From: Yinghuangia soli
GTDB lineage: Bacteria; Actinomycetota; Actinomycetes; Streptomycetales; Streptomycetaceae
Direction: 5' to 3'
Assembly: GCF_021502675.1 (NCBI RefSeq)
Contig: NZ_JAKFHA010000018.1
Coordinates: forward strand, 1 to 64,000
Length of the DNA stretch: 64,000 nt
The notes under the pieces were generated by a model, which ran no database searches, was not told the DNA's origin, and worked only from the letters and a program-made list of their open reading frames with translations. The position numbers and the translations under genes were made by a program. Of the stretch, positions 37,770 to 45,410 are shown one piece after another; positions within the stretch are counted from its first letter, which is position 1, and every line of letters begins with the position of its first letter.

Positions 37770-38693
37770 ATGACCGCGCAGACCCCGACCGCACGCCGCG
37801 TGGCCGCCGTGACCGACCGCCGCATGCTCGGCGGCGACGCGCAGGTCGACGACAAGGCGATGGTCCTCGAGCCGGGCCGCCCGACCCGGCACGACCCGTT
37901 CCTGTTCCTCGCCGAGGACTGGTTCAGCACGGTCGGCTTCGACTGGCACCCGCACCGCGGCCAGGAGACCGTCACCCTCGTCCTGGAAGGCCGGGCCGAG
38001 CATCGCGACAACCGCGGCGGACACGGCGTCCTGGGCCCCGGCGACGTCCAGTGGATGACCGCCGGACGCGGCCTCTTCCATGCCGAGAAGGCCTACCGCG
38101 GCGAACCCGTCCACCTCCTGCAGCTGTGGGTCAACCTCCCGGCCGCGCACAAGATGGACGAGCCGCGCTACCAGGACCTGCGCGCCGACGCGATGCCCGT
38201 ACGCCGCGAGGACGGCGTCGCGGTACGCGTCTTCTCCGGCCGCTCCGGCGACGCCGTCGGCCCCGCGGTCAACGTCGTCCCGGTCACCATGGCCGACGCG
38301 ACGGTCCGCCCGGGTGCCTCGTACGCCCAGGAAATCCCGTCCGACCAGGACGGCTTCGTGTACGTACTGGCCGGCTCCGGCACCTTCGGTCCGGACGCCA
38401 CCCCGGCCCGCGCAGGACAGGTCGTCCACCTCGCCCCGTCGCCCCGCACCCCCGCGGATACCGGGGCAGGTGCGGATGGGGAAGGGGCGGACGGGGCGCC
38501 GGTCGACGGCGTGCTCGCGGTCACCGCCGACCCGGACCAGGCGCAGGACCTGCGCTTCGTGCTGTGGACCGGCCGCCCGGTCCGCGAACCGGTCGCGCAC
38601 TACGGCCCGTTCGTCATGAACACCCGCCGCGAACTGGAGCAGGCCGTCGCGGACGTCCAGTCCGGCGCCTTCGGCGAGATCCCGGCCGACTGA
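37770..38693 (+). CDS. Pirin family protein
   Basis: This 307-residue bicupin has the pirin metal site in the N-terminal cupin: His60 and His62 in FDWHPHRGQETVT, His104 and Glu106 in GLFHAEK. Pirins bind iron; some are quercetin dioxygenases and others act as redox-sensitive cofactors of regulators. The C-terminal cupin (about 180-290) follows the usual pattern, with an inserted Gly/Ala-rich loop near 235-250. GGAGG seven bases before the ATG supports the start. A palindrome in the promoter suggests dedicated control. The gene stands alone between two operator regions. Confidence 0.93.
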   Translation: MTAQTPTARRVAAVTDRRMLGGDAQVDDKAMVLEPGRPTRHDPFLFLAEDWFSTVGFDWHPHRGQETVTLVLEGRAEHRDNRGGHGVLGPGDVQWMTAGRGLFHAEKAYRGEPVHLLQLWVNLPAAHKMDEPRYQDLRADAMPVRREDGVAVRVFSGRSGDAVGPAVNVVPVTMADATVRPGASYAQEIPSDQDGFVYVLAGSGTFGPDATPARAGQVVHLAPSPRTPADTGAGADGEGADGAPVDGVLAVTADPDQAQDLRFVLWTGRPVREPVAHYGPFVMNTRRELEQAVADVQSGAFGEIPAD

Positions 38694-38726
38694 CGCGCGG
38701 GGCGGAGGATCGCCCCGAGGTCATGG

Positions 38727-38775
38727 TTGAGCGGGTGCTCAAAATCGTCTACGGTCGATTTGAGCACCCGCTCAA
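38727..38775. promoter_or_regulatory. Twin 16-bp TetR-type operators
   Basis: TTGAGCGGGTGCTCAA (38727-38742) and TTGAGCACCCGCTCAA (38760-38775) are each palindromic, and the second is the exact reverse complement of the first. Centres are 33 bases apart. They lie immediately upstream of the gene at 38812, the first of four plus-strand genes that include a TetR regulator at 40750. The arrangement fits repression by that TetR protein. Confidence 0.7.
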
Positions 38776-38811
38776 ACCCATGTCCTCGGACCTTCCGCAG
38801 GGGACTCCGCC

Positions 38812-39750
38812 ATGCACGCACGTCCACACCGCCCCCCGCAGCCGAGCCGACAGCCGCTCCGGCTCCCTCGGCTGCTCCCGCACCTGCGCCTTGAGGGCCG
38901 ATCGCGCCGCCGCGCCCGACCCCGCCCTCTCTACATCGAGACCCTCGTCCGCACCCACCCCTACGAACTGTGGCGCCACACCCAGGACCCCGCCCTCCAC
39001 CAACGCTGGGACCTGCGCTTCACCGAGATCCGCGACCTCGACACCGTCCCCGCCCGCGGCACCACCCCGAAGCCGGAGCCGACCTGCGGCGCCACCCCGC
39101 AGCCAGAGCCAGAACCAGGGCCAGGGGCAGAGCCAGGGCGAGAGCCGGACCCGGAAAGCGAACCCGCCGCCCCCGCACCTGGCCGCCGCTTCCGCTACGC
39201 CACCCGCCCGTTCCCCGGCCTGACCATCGCCGGCACCGGCACCACCACCGGCGAACGCCTCCGCCCCGACGGCACCGCGACCTCCGCCCTGCGCTTCGCG
39301 TCCGCCCACCCGCTCTCCCCGATCCGGTACGGACGCGGCTACTGGCGGTACGTCCCCACCCCCGACGGCATCCGCTTCCTCACCGGCTACGACTACACGC
39401 CCGGCTTCGGCGGCCGCCGCCTCGGACGCACCGCGGACCGGCTCTTCCGCCCCCTCATGGGCTGGGCCACCGCCTGGTCCTTCGACCGCCTCCGCCTGTG
39501 GCTGGAGACCGGCGCCGCCCCGTCCGCGACGCTGCACCGCGCACTCGCCGAGACAGCCGCCCGCACCGCGGCCGTCGCCGCCGTCATCGCCGGCACCCGC
39601 TCCTGGGCGCTCGCCGCCGGGACCGGCGTGCTCGCCCTGCTCCTTCCGCCGCTGCCCGGCACCCCGTCGGCACGCCGCTGCCTGCGCCGCCCGCCGGACC
39701 GGCGCGCCGCCACCCCGCCCGAGACCCTCGCCCGCCTGGAGATGCCATGA
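38812..39750 (+). CDS. START/SRPBCC-like protein with membrane-associated C-terminus
   Basis: This 312-residue protein has a ligand-pocket fold resembling START/polyketide-cyclase proteins. PLYIETLVRTHPYELWRHTQDP is the characteristic first strand and helix. Later pieces are RRFRYATRPFPGLTIAGTGT, SALRFASAHPLSPI and the closing helix LFRPLMGWATAWSFDRLRLWLE. A Pro/Glu/Gly insert sits in the middle. After the fold comes a hydrophobic segment (AAVAAVIAGTRSWALAAGTGVLALLLPPLPG) that could cross or dip into the membrane. The N-terminal 38 residues are Arg/Pro-rich. The next gene overlaps by four bases (ATGA), so translation is coupled. Probable role: binding or carrying a hydrophobic molecule. Confidence 0.7.
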   Translation: MHARPHRPPQPSRQPLRLPRLLPHLRLEGRSRRRARPRPLYIETLVRTHPYELWRHTQDPALHQRWDLRFTEIRDLDTVPARGTTPKPEPTCGATPQPEPEPGPGAEPGREPDPESEPAAPAPGRRFRYATRPFPGLTIAGTGTTTGERLRPDGTATSALRFASAHPLSPIRYGRGYWRYVPTPDGIRFLTGYDYTPGFGGRRLGRTADRLFRPLMGWATAWSFDRLRLWLETGAAPSATLHRALAETAARTAAVAAVIAGTRSWALAAGTGVLALLLPPLPGTPSARRCLRRPPDRRAATPPETLARLEMP

Positions 39751-40604
39751 CCCCGCACGCCCCGAGCACCGTGTCCGCCTCTCACACCGCCACTGCCTCT
39801 CACACCGCCTCCGCCTCGGGCTCCGGCACCGAGTCCCCATCCGCCCACGCGTCCGCCCCGAACACCCCAGGTACGCAAAGCGCCGCGCCCGCACGCCCGG
39901 CGCACCGCACCCACTCGATGTTCCAGCGCGCCATGGGCGCCCGCGAGTTCGGCCGCCTCCACCCGGAGCTCCGCCGCCGCTTCGGCGTCGGACTCGACGC
40001 CGGCGAGTCCTGCGTCGGCACCGGCACCATGGGCCGCATCTGGCACGGCACGCCCCGCACCCGCCCGCTGCTGCGCCCGTTCCTCGCGTTCGGCGACCGC
40101 CGGCACGTCCTGCTCGCCGAGACCGGCACCGACGTGCCGTTCACCATCGAGAACTACCCGTACCTCGACTCGTTCGGCCGCGAGACCGTCACCTTCGTCC
40201 GCACCTTCCGCCTGCCGCGCCGGCACCGCCGCTTCGACGCCACCATGGTCTACAGCGAACGCCGCGGCTGCGTCGTCGACTACCTCGGCACCCACCAGCA
40301 CCTCGCCGTGGACCTGCGGTTCGCCGCCACGCCCCGCGGCGGCCTGGAGATCCGCTCCGGCGCCTACCGGCTGTACGAGGGGATCCTCGGCGTCCGCCTG
40401 CCGCGCCCGGTCGTCGGGCAGGCGCTGGTGCGCGAGTCGTTCGACGACGGGGCCGGCGTGTTCCGGATCAGCGTCCGGGTGGTGAATCCGCTCGTCGGAC
40501 CGGTGTTCGGGTACGACGGCAGCTTCACCGCCGCCTACACCTCGCTCGGCAGCACCTCTGTGCCCGCTAGCGTTAGGCCGGTACGGGAGGAATCCCGCCA
40601 CTGA
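39747..40604 (+). CDS. DUF4166 domain protein
   Basis: This 285-residue protein has a Ser/Thr/Ala-rich N-terminal tail of about 55 residues. The body has the pattern of DUF4166: MFQRAMGAREFGRLHPELRRRFG at the start, then FTIENYPYLDSFGRETVTFVRTF. FDATMVYSERRGCVVDYLGTHQHLAVDL and the end LVGPVFGYDGSF complete it. DUF4166 proteins are uncharacterised but often sit next to START-like proteins or SDR enzymes, as here. The start overlaps the stop of the preceding gene, so the two proteins are likely made together and may act on the same ligand. Confidence 0.8.
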   Translation: MTPHAPSTVSASHTATASHTASASGSGTESPSAHASAPNTPGTQSAAPARPAHRTHSMFQRAMGAREFGRLHPELRRRFGVGLDAGESCVGTGTMGRIWHGTPRTRPLLRPFLAFGDRRHVLLAETGTDVPFTIENYPYLDSFGRETVTFVRTFRLPRRHRRFDATMVYSERRGCVVDYLGTHQHLAVDLRFAATPRGGLEIRSGAYRLYEGILGVRLPRPVVGQALVRESFDDGAGVFRISVRVVNPLVGPVFGYDGSFTAAYTSLGSTSVPASVRPVREESRH

Positions 40605-40749
40605 CCGCAGCACGACCCCGGCCACGACTCCTGCACGACTCCCGGCCGCGCCCGCGCCGCGAGCCCGGCCGCGCCCGGACCCGCGGAAGCGGAACGCGCG
40701 GCGCCGTGCCGCCGCCGTGGCCCGACGAAGCACGGAGAACCCGTCCCAG

Positions 40750-41736
40750 ATGAGCAGCGACACGCGGGCCAAGCTGATGCAGGGCGCGTTGGACACCCTG
40801 CGGGCGCACGGCATCGCCGGCACGTCCGCCCGTACCATCGCCGCCGCCGCGGGCGTGAACCAGGCGCTGGTCTTTTACCACTTCGGCACCGTCGACGACC
40901 TCCTGTCCGCGGCCTGCGCGCACGGCGCCGAACAGCATGTGGCCGCGTACCGCGAGCGGTTCGCCGCGGTCGGCTCCGTCCGCGAGCTGCTCGACCTGAG
41001 CCGCGAACTGCACGAGGACGGCCAGGCCGACATGATCGTCCTCGCCCACCTGCTGGCCGGCGCGCAGACCGACCCGGCACTCGCCCCCGCGACCGCCGCC
41101 GGGCTGGGGATGTGGATCGACGAGATCGAGACCGTACTCGCGCGCGTCCTCGCCGACACCCCGCTCGCCGAGGTCGTCGACGCACCCGGCCTCGCGCGCG
41201 CCGTCGCGTCCGCGTTCATCGGCCTGGAACTGTACGGCGGCGTCGACCGCGCGGGCGCGGACCGCGCCCTGGACGCCCTCGAACAACTCGGTGCCCTGGT
41301 CGGCCTCCTCGAAGACCTCGGCCCGCTGACCCAGCGCGCGGTCCGCAGCCGCCTGCGGCGCACCGCGCAGACACCGCGGGCCGCCAGGGCCTCCCGTACG
41401 GCGGCATCCGCCCCGTCGTCACCAGCGACGGCAGCACGAACCGGGGCAGGGACGGGAACGGGGAAGTCGACCCGGCCCGCCAAGGATGCCGCCACGGACA
41501 CCGCCGCGAACGCAGCCGACTCCTCCGGCGACCCCGCCCGCCGCAAATCAGCCGACAAGCCTGCGAAGCGGACCCCGGCTTCCAAAGCCGCCGCCAAGAA
41601 AGCCGGGCCTGCGTCCCGTTCTGCCAAGACGGCAGGCCCCGCACCCGGCAATACTGTCGCCCCCGACAGCAACACCGGCAGCAACACCGGCACCGGCACG
41701 AGCACCGCCCCCGACTCCGACACCAGCCGGTCCTGA
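40750..41736 (+). CDS. TetR-family regulator with a long low-complexity tail
   Basis: This 328-residue protein's first 200 residues form a TetR repressor; the helix-turn-helix lies at about residues 25-50 (TSARTIAAAAGVNQALVFYHFGTVDDLL). The remaining 120 residues are disordered, with Lys/Ala-rich (KRTPASKAAAKKAG) then Thr/Gly/Ser/Asp-rich repeats. The Lys/Ala part looks like histone-H1-type tails known from some actinomycete DNA-binding proteins. I chose ATG 40750; an in-frame GTG at 40717 is possible. It likely controls the twin operators at 38727-38775. It is followed 31 bases later by the leucine-rich-repeat gene. Confidence 0.85.
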   Translation: MSSDTRAKLMQGALDTLRAHGIAGTSARTIAAAAGVNQALVFYHFGTVDDLLSAACAHGAEQHVAAYRERFAAVGSVRELLDLSRELHEDGQADMIVLAHLLAGAQTDPALAPATAAGLGMWIDEIETVLARVLADTPLAEVVDAPGLARAVASAFIGLELYGGVDRAGADRALDALEQLGALVGLLEDLGPLTQRAVRSRLRRTAQTPRAARASRTAASAPSSPATAARTGAGTGTGKSTRPAKDAATDTAANAADSSGDPARRKSADKPAKRTPASKAAAKKAGPASRSAKTAGPAPGNTVAPDSNTGSNTGTGTSTAPDSDTSRS

Positions 41737-41767
41737 GCACCCCACCGGTCCAGGAGGCCGTCCGCGC

Positions 41768-42580
41768 ATGAACAGCACCGGCATCCCGCAGCCGCCCCCG
41801 GCCCCGACTTCCGCCCTGGCCACGGTTCCCGCCCCGGCCCCGCCGCGCGGCCCGTCCGGCACCCCGCCCCGTCTCGACCTGTGGCGCCGCCACCTCGGCC
41901 GGGTGCCCGACGAGGTGTGGGCGCGCGACGACTGGCAGGAACTGATCCTCGCCGAGAACGACCTGGCCGCGGTGCCGCCCCGGATCGGCACCCTGCAGCA
42001 CCTGCGGACCCTGGACCTCGGCCACAACCACCTCGCCGAACTCCCCGACGAACTCGGCGACCTGGCCGGCCTGAGCGACTTCCTCTACCTGCACGACAAC
42101 CGGCTCGCCAAGCTCCCCGAGGCACTCGGACGCCTCACCGCGCTGCGCTACCTCAACGTCGCCGAGAACCGCCTCACCGAGCTCCCGCACAACCTCGGGG
42201 CGATGGCGGCCCTGGTCGAACTCCGGGCCGAGCACAACCGGCTGACCGGCCTGCCCGACTCCCTCGGCGACCTCACCGCCCTGCGTGAACTGTGGCTGCG
42301 CGGCAACGACCTGACCAGCCTCCCGGAGCGCACGGCCGGCCTGGCCGACCTGCGGCACCTGGACCTGCGCGAGAACGCGTTCGACCACGTCCCCGAAACT
42401 CTCGCCGCGCTCCCCCGGCTCCGCCACGTCGACCTGCGGGCCAACCGCATCGAACACCTCCCGGCCTGGGCCGCCGACCTGCCCGCCCTGGAAAAGCTCG
42501 ACCTGCGCTGGAACCCGCTCACCCCTGCCCCGGACATCACCGCCCGCCTGGAACGGCGCGGCTGCATCGTCCTGTCCTGA
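41768..42580 (+). CDS. Leucine-rich-repeat protein
   Basis: This 270-residue protein is made mostly of eight or nine leucine-rich repeats of about 23 residues from residue 55 to 255 (pattern L-x-x-L-x-L-x-x-N-x-L-x-x-L-P). Such repeats form a curved solenoid for protein binding. A Pro/Ala-rich N-terminus of 35 residues precedes. There is no signal peptide, so it acts in the cytoplasm. The capping element at the end reads LRWNPLTPAPDITARLERRGC. It lies 31 bases after the TetR gene on the same strand, so it is probably part of the same transcription unit. Its partner is unknown. LRR proteins are uncommon in actinomycetes. Confidence 0.9.
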   Translation: MNSTGIPQPPPAPTSALATVPAPAPPRGPSGTPPRLDLWRRHLGRVPDEVWARDDWQELILAENDLAAVPPRIGTLQHLRTLDLGHNHLAELPDELGDLAGLSDFLYLHDNRLAKLPEALGRLTALRYLNVAENRLTELPHNLGAMAALVELRAEHNRLTGLPDSLGDLTALRELWLRGNDLTSLPERTAGLADLRHLDLRENAFDHVPETLAALPRLRHVDLRANRIEHLPAWAADLPALEKLDLRWNPLTPAPDITARLERRGCIVLS

Positions 42581-44043: not shown

Positions 44044-44469
44044 GTGCCGCGGGCCTCGCGTCGCCGGGGCCAGGCCGCCGAACGGCACGCGGACTCCATC
44101 CGGTTCGTGCTGTTCGAGGCGCGTCCTGCCGGGCTGACCTCTTTCCAGCTCCAGCGCGCCACGGAGCTTTCGCCCAGCCAGTTCCGGTCAGGGCTGGCCC
44201 GGTTGCGCGACATCATCGCCGAGCGCGGCTGGCCGCCGATCATCTGGACCAGGGCCGACGGCGACCGCTTCGGGGTGTCGGCCGAGGACGTCGAGCAGTA
44301 CATCCGCGGGCAGGTGCGCGAGCAGCTCGGGGAGATCCGGCGGCTGGTGACCGGCACGGTCGCGCCGCAGCTGGCGGAGACGCCGAGGGCGAGGTGGATC
44401 GGTTACGCCAGCGCCATGCTCAGCGCGATCGAGACCAACCTCGACATGCTCGACACCTCCGACTCCTGA
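44044..44469 (+). CDS. Small winged-helix protein
   Basis: This 141-residue basic protein starts with GTG at 44044, two bases after the preceding stop. The N-terminal half reads as a winged helix: ADSIRFVLFEARPAGLTSFQLQ and SPSQFRSGLARLRDIIAERGWP place the helix and wing, then IIWTRADGDRFGVSAEDVEQYI. The C-terminal half is helical. It resembles small replication or regulation proteins carried on actinomycete mobile elements, in my memory sometimes called RacP; the similarity is uncertain. A very stable terminator follows and an IS5-type element lies beyond, so the locus may be a relic of an integrated element. Confidence 0.55.
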   Translation: MPRASRRRGQAAERHADSIRFVLFEARPAGLTSFQLQRATELSPSQFRSGLARLRDIIAERGWPPIIWTRADGDRFGVSAEDVEQYIRGQVREQLGEIRRLVTGTVAPQLAETPRARWIGYASAMLSAIETNLDMLDTSDS

Positions 44470-44488
44470 ACCTGTTGCCGCTCCCCAC

Positions 44489-44523
44489 CCGGGGCGGGGG
44501 CCGCTGCACGGCCCCCGCCCCGG
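44489..44523 (+). terminator. 15-bp perfect terminator hairpin
   Basis: CCGGGGCGGGGGCCG (44489-44503) pairs perfectly with CGGCCCCCGCCCCGG (44509-44523) around CTGCA, 20 bases after the winged-helix gene's stop and before the transposase start. Confidence 0.75.
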
Positions 44524-44553
44524 ATCCGGCTTCCGGGAGGAGGAACCGACCGA

Positions 44554-45410
44554 TGCGCCGCAGTTGCTACCCCTCGGACATGACGAACGCCGAATGGGCC
44601 CTGATCGAACCGCTGTTGCCGGTCCCGGCCTGCGAGACGCCGAAGGGCGGGCGGCCGGAGCAGCACCCGCGCCGCGAGACCGTCGACGCGATCCGCTACG
44701 TCGTCGACACCGGCTGCAAGTGGCGCGCCTTGCCGCGTGACTTCCCGCCCTGGAAGACGTGCTACGGGTTCATGGCCAGGTGGGCGGCAGCCGGAGTGGT
44801 CGGGCAGATCCGCGACCAGCTCCGCCGGCAAGTGCGGCGGCAGATGGGCCGCGCGCCGCGCGCGGTCGCCACCGTGATCGACTCCCAGAGCGTCCGCGCG
44901 GCAGAGACCGTGGGAAAGGACTCGCGCGGCTACGACGCCGCAAAGAAGGTCAACGGGAGGAAGCGGCACCTGGTGGTGGACACACACGGGCTGCTGCTGT
45001 TCGTCATGGTCACCCCCGCCGACGTCACCGACCGCGACGCGGCCAAGCAGGTCCTGTTCCGGCTGCGGCTGATGCACCCCGAGATCACCATCGTCTGGGC
45101 CGACTCCGCCTACGGCGGATAGCTGGTCCACTGGGCCAAGAAGTGGCTCGGGCTGACCTTGAAGACGGTCAACCGGCCCAAGGACGCGGTCGGGTTCGTG
45201 GTGCTGCCGCGTCGTTGGGTCGTGGAAAGGTCACTGGCCTGGCTCATGCACGCCCTTCGGCACGCACGGGACTACGAACGGCTGATCCAACACGCCGAGA
45301 GCCTTCTGACCTGGGCCGCGATCTCCCTGATGACCCGCCGCCTCACCCGCCGCAGCACCGTCCAGGCCGGGCGGCCGGCGCCTGCGGCGCCGCCCGCCCG
45401 CGCGGCGTGA
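44554..45410 (+). pseudogene. IS5-family transposase with an in-frame amber codon
   Basis: This DDE transposase of about 285 residues carries a premature stop. The ATG at 44554 has AGGAGG upstream, and the reading frame runs to TAG at 45120-45122, then continues in the same frame to 45410. The N-terminal domain MTNAEWALIEPLLP and CKWRALPRDFPPW, the first Asp in VATVIDSQSVR, the second Asp in VWADSAYGG and the Glu in WVVERSLAWL are all intact. The stop replaces a residue where related enzymes often have Gln, so a single C-to-T change (CAG to TAG) explains it. Terminal inverted repeats were not located. Confidence 0.85.

Follow-up and report, generated by a model that had tools for sequence, protein, structure and literature searches.

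A 64,000-nucleotide stretch of the genome of Yinghuangia soli (NCBI RefSeq assembly GCF_021502675.1, contig NZ_JAKFHA010000018.1, positions 1 to 64,000; hereafter the window) carries, at positions 38,727 to 42,580, two copies of a palindromic DNA site followed by genes for a START-like protein, a DUF4166 protein, a TetR-family regulator and a leucine-rich-repeat (LRR) protein. Comparison with other genomes strongly supports a link between the TetR gene and the palindromic site, and no other result of the analysis is as strong. The same comparison pairs the START-like gene with the DUF4166 gene. Taken together, the locus suggests a system for the repressor-controlled handling of a lipophilic ligand by the START-like and DUF4166 proteins, a proposal to which we give about an even chance.

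The source genome is actinobacterial and 9.7 Mb in size. On the basis of open reading frame (ORF) calls and a Pfam scan, the genes follow the twin sites on the + strand in the order START-like, DUF4166, TetR and LRR. Model quality is given as the predicted local distance difference test (pLDDT). The elements that carry the argument are listed here.

38727-38742, no strand assigned: predicted operator O1, TTGAGCGGGTGCTCAA, whose left half-site is the predicted -35 hexamer
38727-38732, + strand: predicted -35 hexamer TTGAGC, inside O1, 17-18 bp from TANNNT in 23 of 23 twin sites spaced 31-35 bp apart
38750-38755, + strand: TACGGT, the predicted -10 hexamer, which lies 17 bp from the -35 hexamer in the interval separating O1 from O2; proposed from conservation
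38760-38775, no strand assigned: predicted operator O2, TTGAGCACCCGCTCAA, which covers the point where transcription is predicted to begin
38812-39750, + strand: START/SRPBCC-like protein of 312 residues (alignment; model pLDDT 86; best Foldseek match TcmN aromatase/cyclase (ARO/CYC), E 5e-5)
39747-40604, + strand: DUF4166 protein of 285 residues (PF13761, E 3e-60; model pLDDT 87)
40717-41736, + strand: TetR-family regulator (PF00440, E 2e-9), the putative reader of O1 and O2 by co-occurrence

A TetR-family regulator and a twin palindromic site occur together

The site has the 16 bp consensus TTGAGC-N4-GCTCAA, and each copy is palindromic save for its 4-bp centre. O1 is the exact reverse complement of O2, with 17-nt arms that pair at 100% of their positions. 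The two exactly complementary 16-bp palindromes that the original prediction had placed upstream of a coupled START-like/DUF4166 pair were thus confirmed, at 38727 and 38760. Two exact matches occur in the window, compared with none in 100 dinucleotide shuffles, and about one chance site would be expected in the window if up to two mismatches were allowed. Across the whole genome, three exact sites were found versus one for a reversed control pattern.

To place the locus in context, genome contigs were scanned for DUF4166 and the best 80 of 128 relatives were kept. These are loci L010 to L089; L001 holds the third exact site of the window genome, and L002 to L009 came from another search, in which L003, L004 and L005 duplicate L010, L011 and the window. 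Gene calls in the fetched loci are ORF heuristics. A TetR gene was called adjacent when it lay within 4.5 kb, and sites were counted at no more than one mismatch each. By this measure a site is present in all 26 loci that have an adjacent TetR gene: 25 carry the twin site and one a single site, and no locus has TetR without a site. Five further loci have the twin site without an adjacent TetR gene, which brings the sites upstream of START to twin copies in 30 of the 80 loci and a single copy in one. For these five (L027, L037, L061, L068 and L082), a TetR homologue is encoded elsewhere in the genome in every case (E 3e-44 to 3e-75), while none of the five site-less genomes checked (L028, L030, L044, L055 and L062) has a TetR match at E <= 1e-20. 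The earlier proposal that the regulator and the twin sites belong together is therefore borne out at 26 of 26 loci.

A second search made no use of gene content. The exact twin site was sought in 394 genomes drawn evenly from a larger class, and matched 21 of them; the reversed control pattern matched none. In each of these 21 genomes TetR was matched at E <= 1e-20; 19 of the matches are strong (>180 bits), that of G416 is middling (132 bits) and that of G195 weak (84 bits). Sixteen of the 21 twin sites precede START and/or DUF4166, and the other five lie beside TetR or in a TetR operon. Viewed from the side of the protein, a strong TetR match occurs in 27 genomes, 19 of which have an exact twin. 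The other eight all have at least one site of 0-1 mismatch in the 6-8 kb around TetR, and six of these have a degenerate twin with copies 31-34 bp apart (the partner site in L155 has two mismatches). Solely through co-occurrence and footprinting, these data link the putative palindromic operator to the TetR gene.

The regulator carries the TetR_N helix-turn-helix (PF00440; 37.7 bits versus a cut-off of 24). TetR-family repressors commonly have operators at their own promoters, and the window protein resembles such autoregulators in its helix-turn-helix, in the palindromic site over its own promoter, in its local operon and in its pair of sites, which in most loci are separated by some three helical turns. 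No characterised regulator matches it closely, the best match in the PDB being weak (E 4e-9; 2dg8, a putative regulator), and all of its NCBIfam matches fall far below cut-off. In Microbispora (L014, L018, L020 and L022) and in G365 (L157), a gene on the opposite strand, whose product is protein-kinase-like by eye, lies between DUF4166 and TetR.

The twin site overlaps a predicted promoter

Conservation around the twin sites points to a promoter embedded in them. In all 23 twin sites with a spacing of 31-35 bp (22 loci plus the window; spacers of 16-18 bp allowed), a TANNNT motif follows the first TTGAGC, at 17 bp in 16 cases and at 18 bp in seven. This conserved spacing suggests that the first half-site doubles as the -35 element, that the -10 element lies between the two sites and that the second site covers the predicted transcription start. 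With this geometry, repression would occur by promoter occlusion. Measured from start to start, the two sites are 34 bp apart in 16 loci, 33 bp in four, 27 bp in three and 28 bp in two; spacings of 31, 35, 43, 46 and 50 bp occur in one locus each.

The window sites also lie within a larger symmetrical region.

38715-38789, no strand assigned: extended dyad around O1, the promoter and O2, near-symmetric, with outer arms 92% complementary

The whole of this stretch could form a long hairpin or a cruciform. No extended dyad is evident in the flanks of the site in Yinghuangia seranimata (L010).

START-like and DUF4166 genes form a conserved pair

All 80 loci, which span Actinobacteria, Paenibacillus, Cohnella and Pontibacter, have a START gene directly upstream of DUF4166 and in the same orientation. 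In the window, the DUF4166 start codon and the START stop codon overlap by 4 bp. An NTGA start/stop overlap of this length is available in 64 of the 80 loci, and the remaining 16 have a start codon no more than 60 bp away. The idea of a coupled unit containing a pocket protein, put forward in the original prediction, is upheld by this constancy. The 394 class genomes give a view independent of that selection: 23 of the 24 with a strong DUF4166 match (E < 1e-54) have START (E <= 1e-15), compared with one of the 370 others. The two genes adjoin in 21 of these 23 genomes and lie on different contigs in two (G198 and G375).

DUF4166 also occurs in Firmicutes (in the B. subtilis control genome) and in Bacteroidota (Pontibacter). 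Furthermore, a divergent DUF4166 subfamily (L007:1408-2178; G077, G186 and G205) is present in other actinobacterial families, in genomes without a START match.

Predicted folds of the paired proteins

Over its first ~200 residues the START-like protein resembles START/SRPBCC proteins (PF10604, TcmN ARO/CYC and 3qsz). Its model shows the helix-grip fold, whose long C-terminal helix is followed by two further helices. The closest folds are the TcmN and WhiE aromatase/cyclases, a Xanthomonas STAR protein (3qsz) and relatives of Bet v 1 (E 5e-5 or weaker). Twenty-two PDB matches were obtained at E <= 0.001, and the 50 listed are mostly START, SRPBCC or Bet v 1 proteins. The Pfam scan gave the window protein no relevant match of its own, and none to the START/SRPBCC clan above cut-off; PF10604 (Polyketide_cyc2) stays below cut-off in L010 (24.9 versus 27.4 bits) and in L062. 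The alignment profile gave no useful sequence match in the PDB, and NCBIfam gave no family for either START or DUF4166.

Unlike START/SRPBCC proteins, those of the window type add a C-terminal region that is hydrophobic in many relatives and bears a P-x-A-x-R-C motif, each position of which is at least 90% conserved in an alignment of 57 sequences (the window plus 56 of 76 usable). Rows L013, L051, L061 and L068, which have a wrong start or runs of N, were left out of the alignment and of the hydropathy analysis and were kept in the locus counts. The C-terminal helices of the window protein are moderately hydrophobic, and attachment to a membrane is possible. As modelled, START would have a lipid-pocket fold that is clearly membrane-linked only in some relatives.

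Those relatives include homologues from Firmicutes and Bacteroidota. In five of five tested (L030, L036, L062, L075 and L081), START contains a full DoxX_3 domain (PF13781; E 5e-14 to 6e-22). In addition, a DCC1-like (PF04134) thiol-disulfide gene lies directly upstream in four of seven Firmicutes/Bacteroidota loci (L062, L066, L075 and L086), with Pfam confirmation in L075 and L086. START is thus either fused to or beside proteins of these two kinds in those phyla, whereas at the window locus the Pfam scan matched neither DoxX_3 nor DCC1, the window START included.

We know of no function for the DUF4166 family (PF13761). The window protein matches PF13761 over its full length (203.5 bits versus a cut-off of 23). 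Its model resembles BFA1, DUF3598, Rv0813, nitrobindin and the spirocyclase OssO (VIA Z 9-10, root-mean-square deviation ~4, over 135-153 residues in the top rows), with the spirocyclase OlmO also among the closest folds; fold families beyond the VIA list remain candidates. No meaningful PDB sequence match was obtained with the family profile (best E 0.87). As a guess at the fold, the model suggests a calycin-like beta barrel. The DUF4166 alignment comprises 52 sequences (the window plus 51 of 75), and many polar residues in it are invariant, among them N136, D141, R145, D164, D178 and H185. Rows L039, L042, L047, L068 and L072 were left out of this alignment and kept in the locus counts.

Other candidate targets of the regulator

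The third exact site of the window genome (C9:15698) lies just before a tandem of genes for three related small membrane proteins (L001:6737-8111), which match no Pfam family above cut-off. The second and third of these paralogues are 64% identical. In the congeneric genome G001, a site precedes a homologue of the first protein, which is predicted to have four transmembrane (4-TM) segments. The two are 38% identical over residues 6-127 (122 residues), with a genome-wide E of 1.5e-10; a second comparison gave 37% over 121 residues, and the gene neighbourhoods differ. At both places the site consists of the full palindrome followed by 13-bp repeats ending in GCTCAA, one in the window genome and two in G001. 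Comparison therefore supports these 4-TM genes (the own1/Y6 pair) as a putative conserved second target of the regulator in the genus.

Two sets of sites were set aside. The C7 site of G001 (L144:2813) was considered as a further target, but the product of the small membrane ORF that follows it does not clearly resemble the 4-TM proteins found elsewhere. The single sites in G035, G406 and G227 were considered as members of a wider regulon; they lie inside ORFs, as called, and were taken as chance matches.

In other genera the TetR gene and its site accompany different genes. The twin site and TetR are found with small membrane proteins in L145, L146, L147 and L148, and the small membrane proteins of L159 have one exact site and one with a single mismatch. 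TetR and site occur with DUF2071 in L146, L150 and L156 by Pfam and in L151 by likeness of the translation, and with proteins of 7-10 transmembrane (TM) segments in L152 (a single site) and L154 (a degenerate twin). In L142 and L176, the TetR operon behind the twin site encodes a TM-START protein and then a protein with multiple TM segments, a PEMT methyltransferase-like domain and a C-terminal DCC1-like domain containing CGPC.

L142:5159-6526 and L176:2599-3894: multi-TM PEMT-DCC1-like fusion, next to TM-START and TetR

The PEMT match is above cut-off in L142 and below it in L176, and DCC1 is below cut-off in both. In Actinoplanes flavus (G462), the twin site precedes both a PEMT-DCC1 operon and START-DUF4166. 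The theme common to the regulator's apparent clients would be membrane and pocket proteins. The original prediction had described a self-contained system, and this proved too narrow in view of the operator before small membrane proteins in the genus and of the other clients elsewhere.

Evidence that weighs against the proposed system

Several observations lower our confidence that a repressor governs the handling of a lipophile by START and DUF4166. With regard to regulation, both TetR and the site are missing from 49 of the 80 DUF4166 loci, where the START-DUF4166 pair thus works without this regulator. The TetR of G195 is only 33% identical to that of the window, no better than the TetR proteins of site-less genomes, and a strict consensus scan called no sigma-70 promoter at the twin sites. 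Sites away from the locus are no more numerous than the background set by the control pattern, and three lie inside ORFs; a wider regulon appears convincing only in Yinghuangia and Actinoplanes flavus. The third 4-TM paralogue, used as a query, found nothing in G001, and neither a DUF4166 nor a 4-TM gene was found in G002, which belongs to the same genus.

The pairing likewise has exceptions. G229 has START without DUF4166 (its solitary START gene is L180:1864-2676, and the 6 kb read there contains no DUF4166, TetR match or site), while G272 and L006 have DUF4166 and TetR behind a site without START. DUF4166 is patchy, being found in eight of 100 relatives and in 41 of the 394 class genomes (39 above cut-off). 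The protein searches of the 394 genomes scored the seven best first-look candidates per genome, which makes absences soft.

The protein evidence is also mixed. The fold matches of the DUF4166 model are moderate, with no Foldseek match at E <= 0.001, and the invariant polar residues would also fit a catalyst that acts on a non-lipid. The peak 19-residue Kyte-Doolittle hydropathy of the window START is 1.41, against a usual threshold of 1.6. Of 76 homologues, 37 peak above 1.6 and another 18 in the range 1.0 to 1.6. The remaining 21, which include the proteins read from Amycolatopsis and Microbacterium, are clearly not of the membrane type. We had considered START as a membrane-anchored protein and dropped this idea on these values, only 37 of the 76 homologues being above the threshold. 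The hydropathy result slightly lowers our confidence in lipophile handling and in the broader proposal given at the end, and slightly raises that in a role as a cyclase (see below).

Alternative explanations

A somewhat unlikely alternative is that the pair belongs to a membrane module for redox or thiol maintenance, in which START brings a quinone-like or oxidised lipid to DoxX-type and DCC1-type partners and DUF4166 is the receiving barrel. The START-DoxX_3 fusions and upstream DCC1-like genes of the Firmicutes/Bacteroidota loci described above speak for such a module, as do the multi-TM methyltransferase-like/DCC1-like CGPC protein in the TetR operons of L142 and L176 and the conserved C-terminal Arg-Cys motif of START. 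However, the window locus contains no DoxX_3 or DCC1 match, and 21 of 76 START homologues lack any hydrophobic segment. Moreover, neither methyltransferase fusion matches DCC1 above the Pfam cut-off, and in L176 the PEMT match falls below it as well.

Less probable still is a tailoring unit of specialised metabolism, with START as an aromatase/cyclase, DUF4166 as a second cyclase and a diffusible metabolite that also induces TetR. Structural matches speak for this: TcmN and WhiE are the nearest solved folds to START, and the spirocyclases OssO and OlmO are among the closest to DUF4166. So do the many invariant polar residues of DUF4166 and the lack of a clear membrane character in the window START. 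Yet the Pfam scan revealed no synthase among nine neighbouring ORFs, and the pair has other neighbours in Paenibacillus, Cohnella and Pontibacter, where START is fused to DoxX_3.

The original prediction had treated the LRR gene as a fourth member of the system.

41768-42580, + strand: LRR protein gene (PF13855, E 7e-37), not conserved at the locus; a neighbour judged to be outside the system

This gene begins 31 bp past the TetR stop codon on the same strand and so may share its transcript. Nevertheless, an LRR gene occurs in only one of 89 DUF4166 loci searched, the window's own, and is missing from the congeneric G001. LRR orthologues with 50-63% identity occur instead in four genomes of the family (G003, G004, G006 and G012) in which no DUF4166 was found. 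A signalling or modification system made of all four genes is thus very improbable, and the LRR gene is a bystander. The comparison of genomes proposed earlier, which was to show co-occurrence of the four genes, returned the START/DUF4166 pair and the TetR-site link and left the LRR gene out.

Finally, we give virtually no credence to the inverted repeat as an RNA hairpin (a terminator or attenuator of the upstream pirin gene) rather than a protein-binding site and have rejected it: although 38710-38795 folds into a single long hairpin far better than shuffles do (z -10.9) and the repeat lies 34 bp past the pirin stop codon, other loci mostly have differing centres, spacings of 27-50 bp and inexact inverted copies yet keep each 16-bp site, the sites track TetR, and a terminator scan called none in this interval.

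Lineage-specific segments and neighbouring genes

The TetR protein was said to have a histone-like tail. An Ala/Lys/Pro/Thr-rich tail is indeed present, at about residues 217-339; it is absent from 28 of 28 orthologues.

41365-41736, + strand: low-complexity Ala/Lys/Pro/Thr-rich tail of TetR, lineage-specific; 28 of 28 orthologues end about here

The orthologues end 16-29 residues after a conserved GP, and the window protein ends 138 residues after it. This count leaves out the window and three rows of unrelated TetR proteins (L047, L052 and L060). The tail was rejected as a functional element and is regarded as lineage-specific low complexity. In the window genome, START, DUF4166 and TetR each have a low-complexity segment rich in Pro, Ala, Ser, Thr or Lys that is mostly missing from the relatives read: a Pro/Glu insertion in START, a Ser/Ala/Thr N-terminus in DUF4166 and the tail in TetR. 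We treat all three segments as lineage-specific. At its other end, TetR more likely starts at ATG 40750 than at 40717, as judged by comparison with Yinghuangia.

Upstream of the operon lies a pirin gene (37770-38693), which is also found upstream in Yinghuangia seranimata L010 (80% identity). The START/DUF4166/TetR locus of G001 gave the same match statistics as L010. Downstream, an IS4/5-family transposase gene (PF13340, PF01609) occupies 44394-45122 of the window.

A proposed mechanism for lipophile handling

Repressor-controlled handling of a lipophilic ligand would operate as follows. TetR would bind O1, over the -35 element, and O2, over the predicted transcription start, and so keep its own operon off. 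A small and probably lipophilic inducer that enters or accumulates would bind TetR and release it from the DNA. The derepressed operon would then yield the translationally coupled START pocket protein, probably at the membrane, and the DUF4166 barrel, along with more TetR, which would close the loop. START would take up or present the lipophilic molecule, and DUF4166 would bind or modify the same molecule, so that the two together might bind, move or modify it. In the genus, the same TetR would also control the small 4-TM proteins in trans.

The steps of this scheme differ in standing. Sequence comparison supports the operon, the TetR-site link, the promoter geometry, the START-DUF4166 pairing and the second target. 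We infer repression, induction by a ligand, the lipophilic nature of that ligand, the membrane location in this genome, the division of labour between START and DUF4166, and the chemistry. Our guess, in view of the redox partners seen in Firmicutes and of the methyltransferase-like protein that bears DCC1, is a compound of the quinone or isoprenoid type.

A broader proposal is possible, although we hold it to be doubtful: START-DUF4166 would be a widespread two-protein machine for lipophiles, placed under a portable TetR/twin-operator cassette whose 4-TM, TM-START/methyltransferase-DCC1 and DUF2071 clients would define a membrane-lipophile (quinone- or isoprenoid-type) regulon. Under this proposal a START pocket, tethered to the membrane in many lineages, would act alongside a calycin barrel; the DoxX_3 and DCC1-type proteins of Firmicutes would be redox partners of the pair, and the cassette would be an arrangement of Actinobacteria.

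TetR autoregulation and START pockets are of known kinds. No paper naming DUF4166 or PF13761 was found in the library searched, and none of the titles listed there was seen to deal with the regulator or its site, with START-DUF4166 pairing or with the swappable clients. Among the titles listed for the B. subtilis genes yndG, yndH and yndJ, which we take to be candidates, none evidently concerns function.

For the family, the analysis gives DUF4166 a constant partner, a guess at its fold, a regulator dedicated to it and a DNA site known to the letter. With that one sequence, the probable targets of TetR can be located in a genome. Furthermore, TetR may serve as a ready biosensor for the compound that START-DUF4166 handles, which makes the question of the ligand a testable one.

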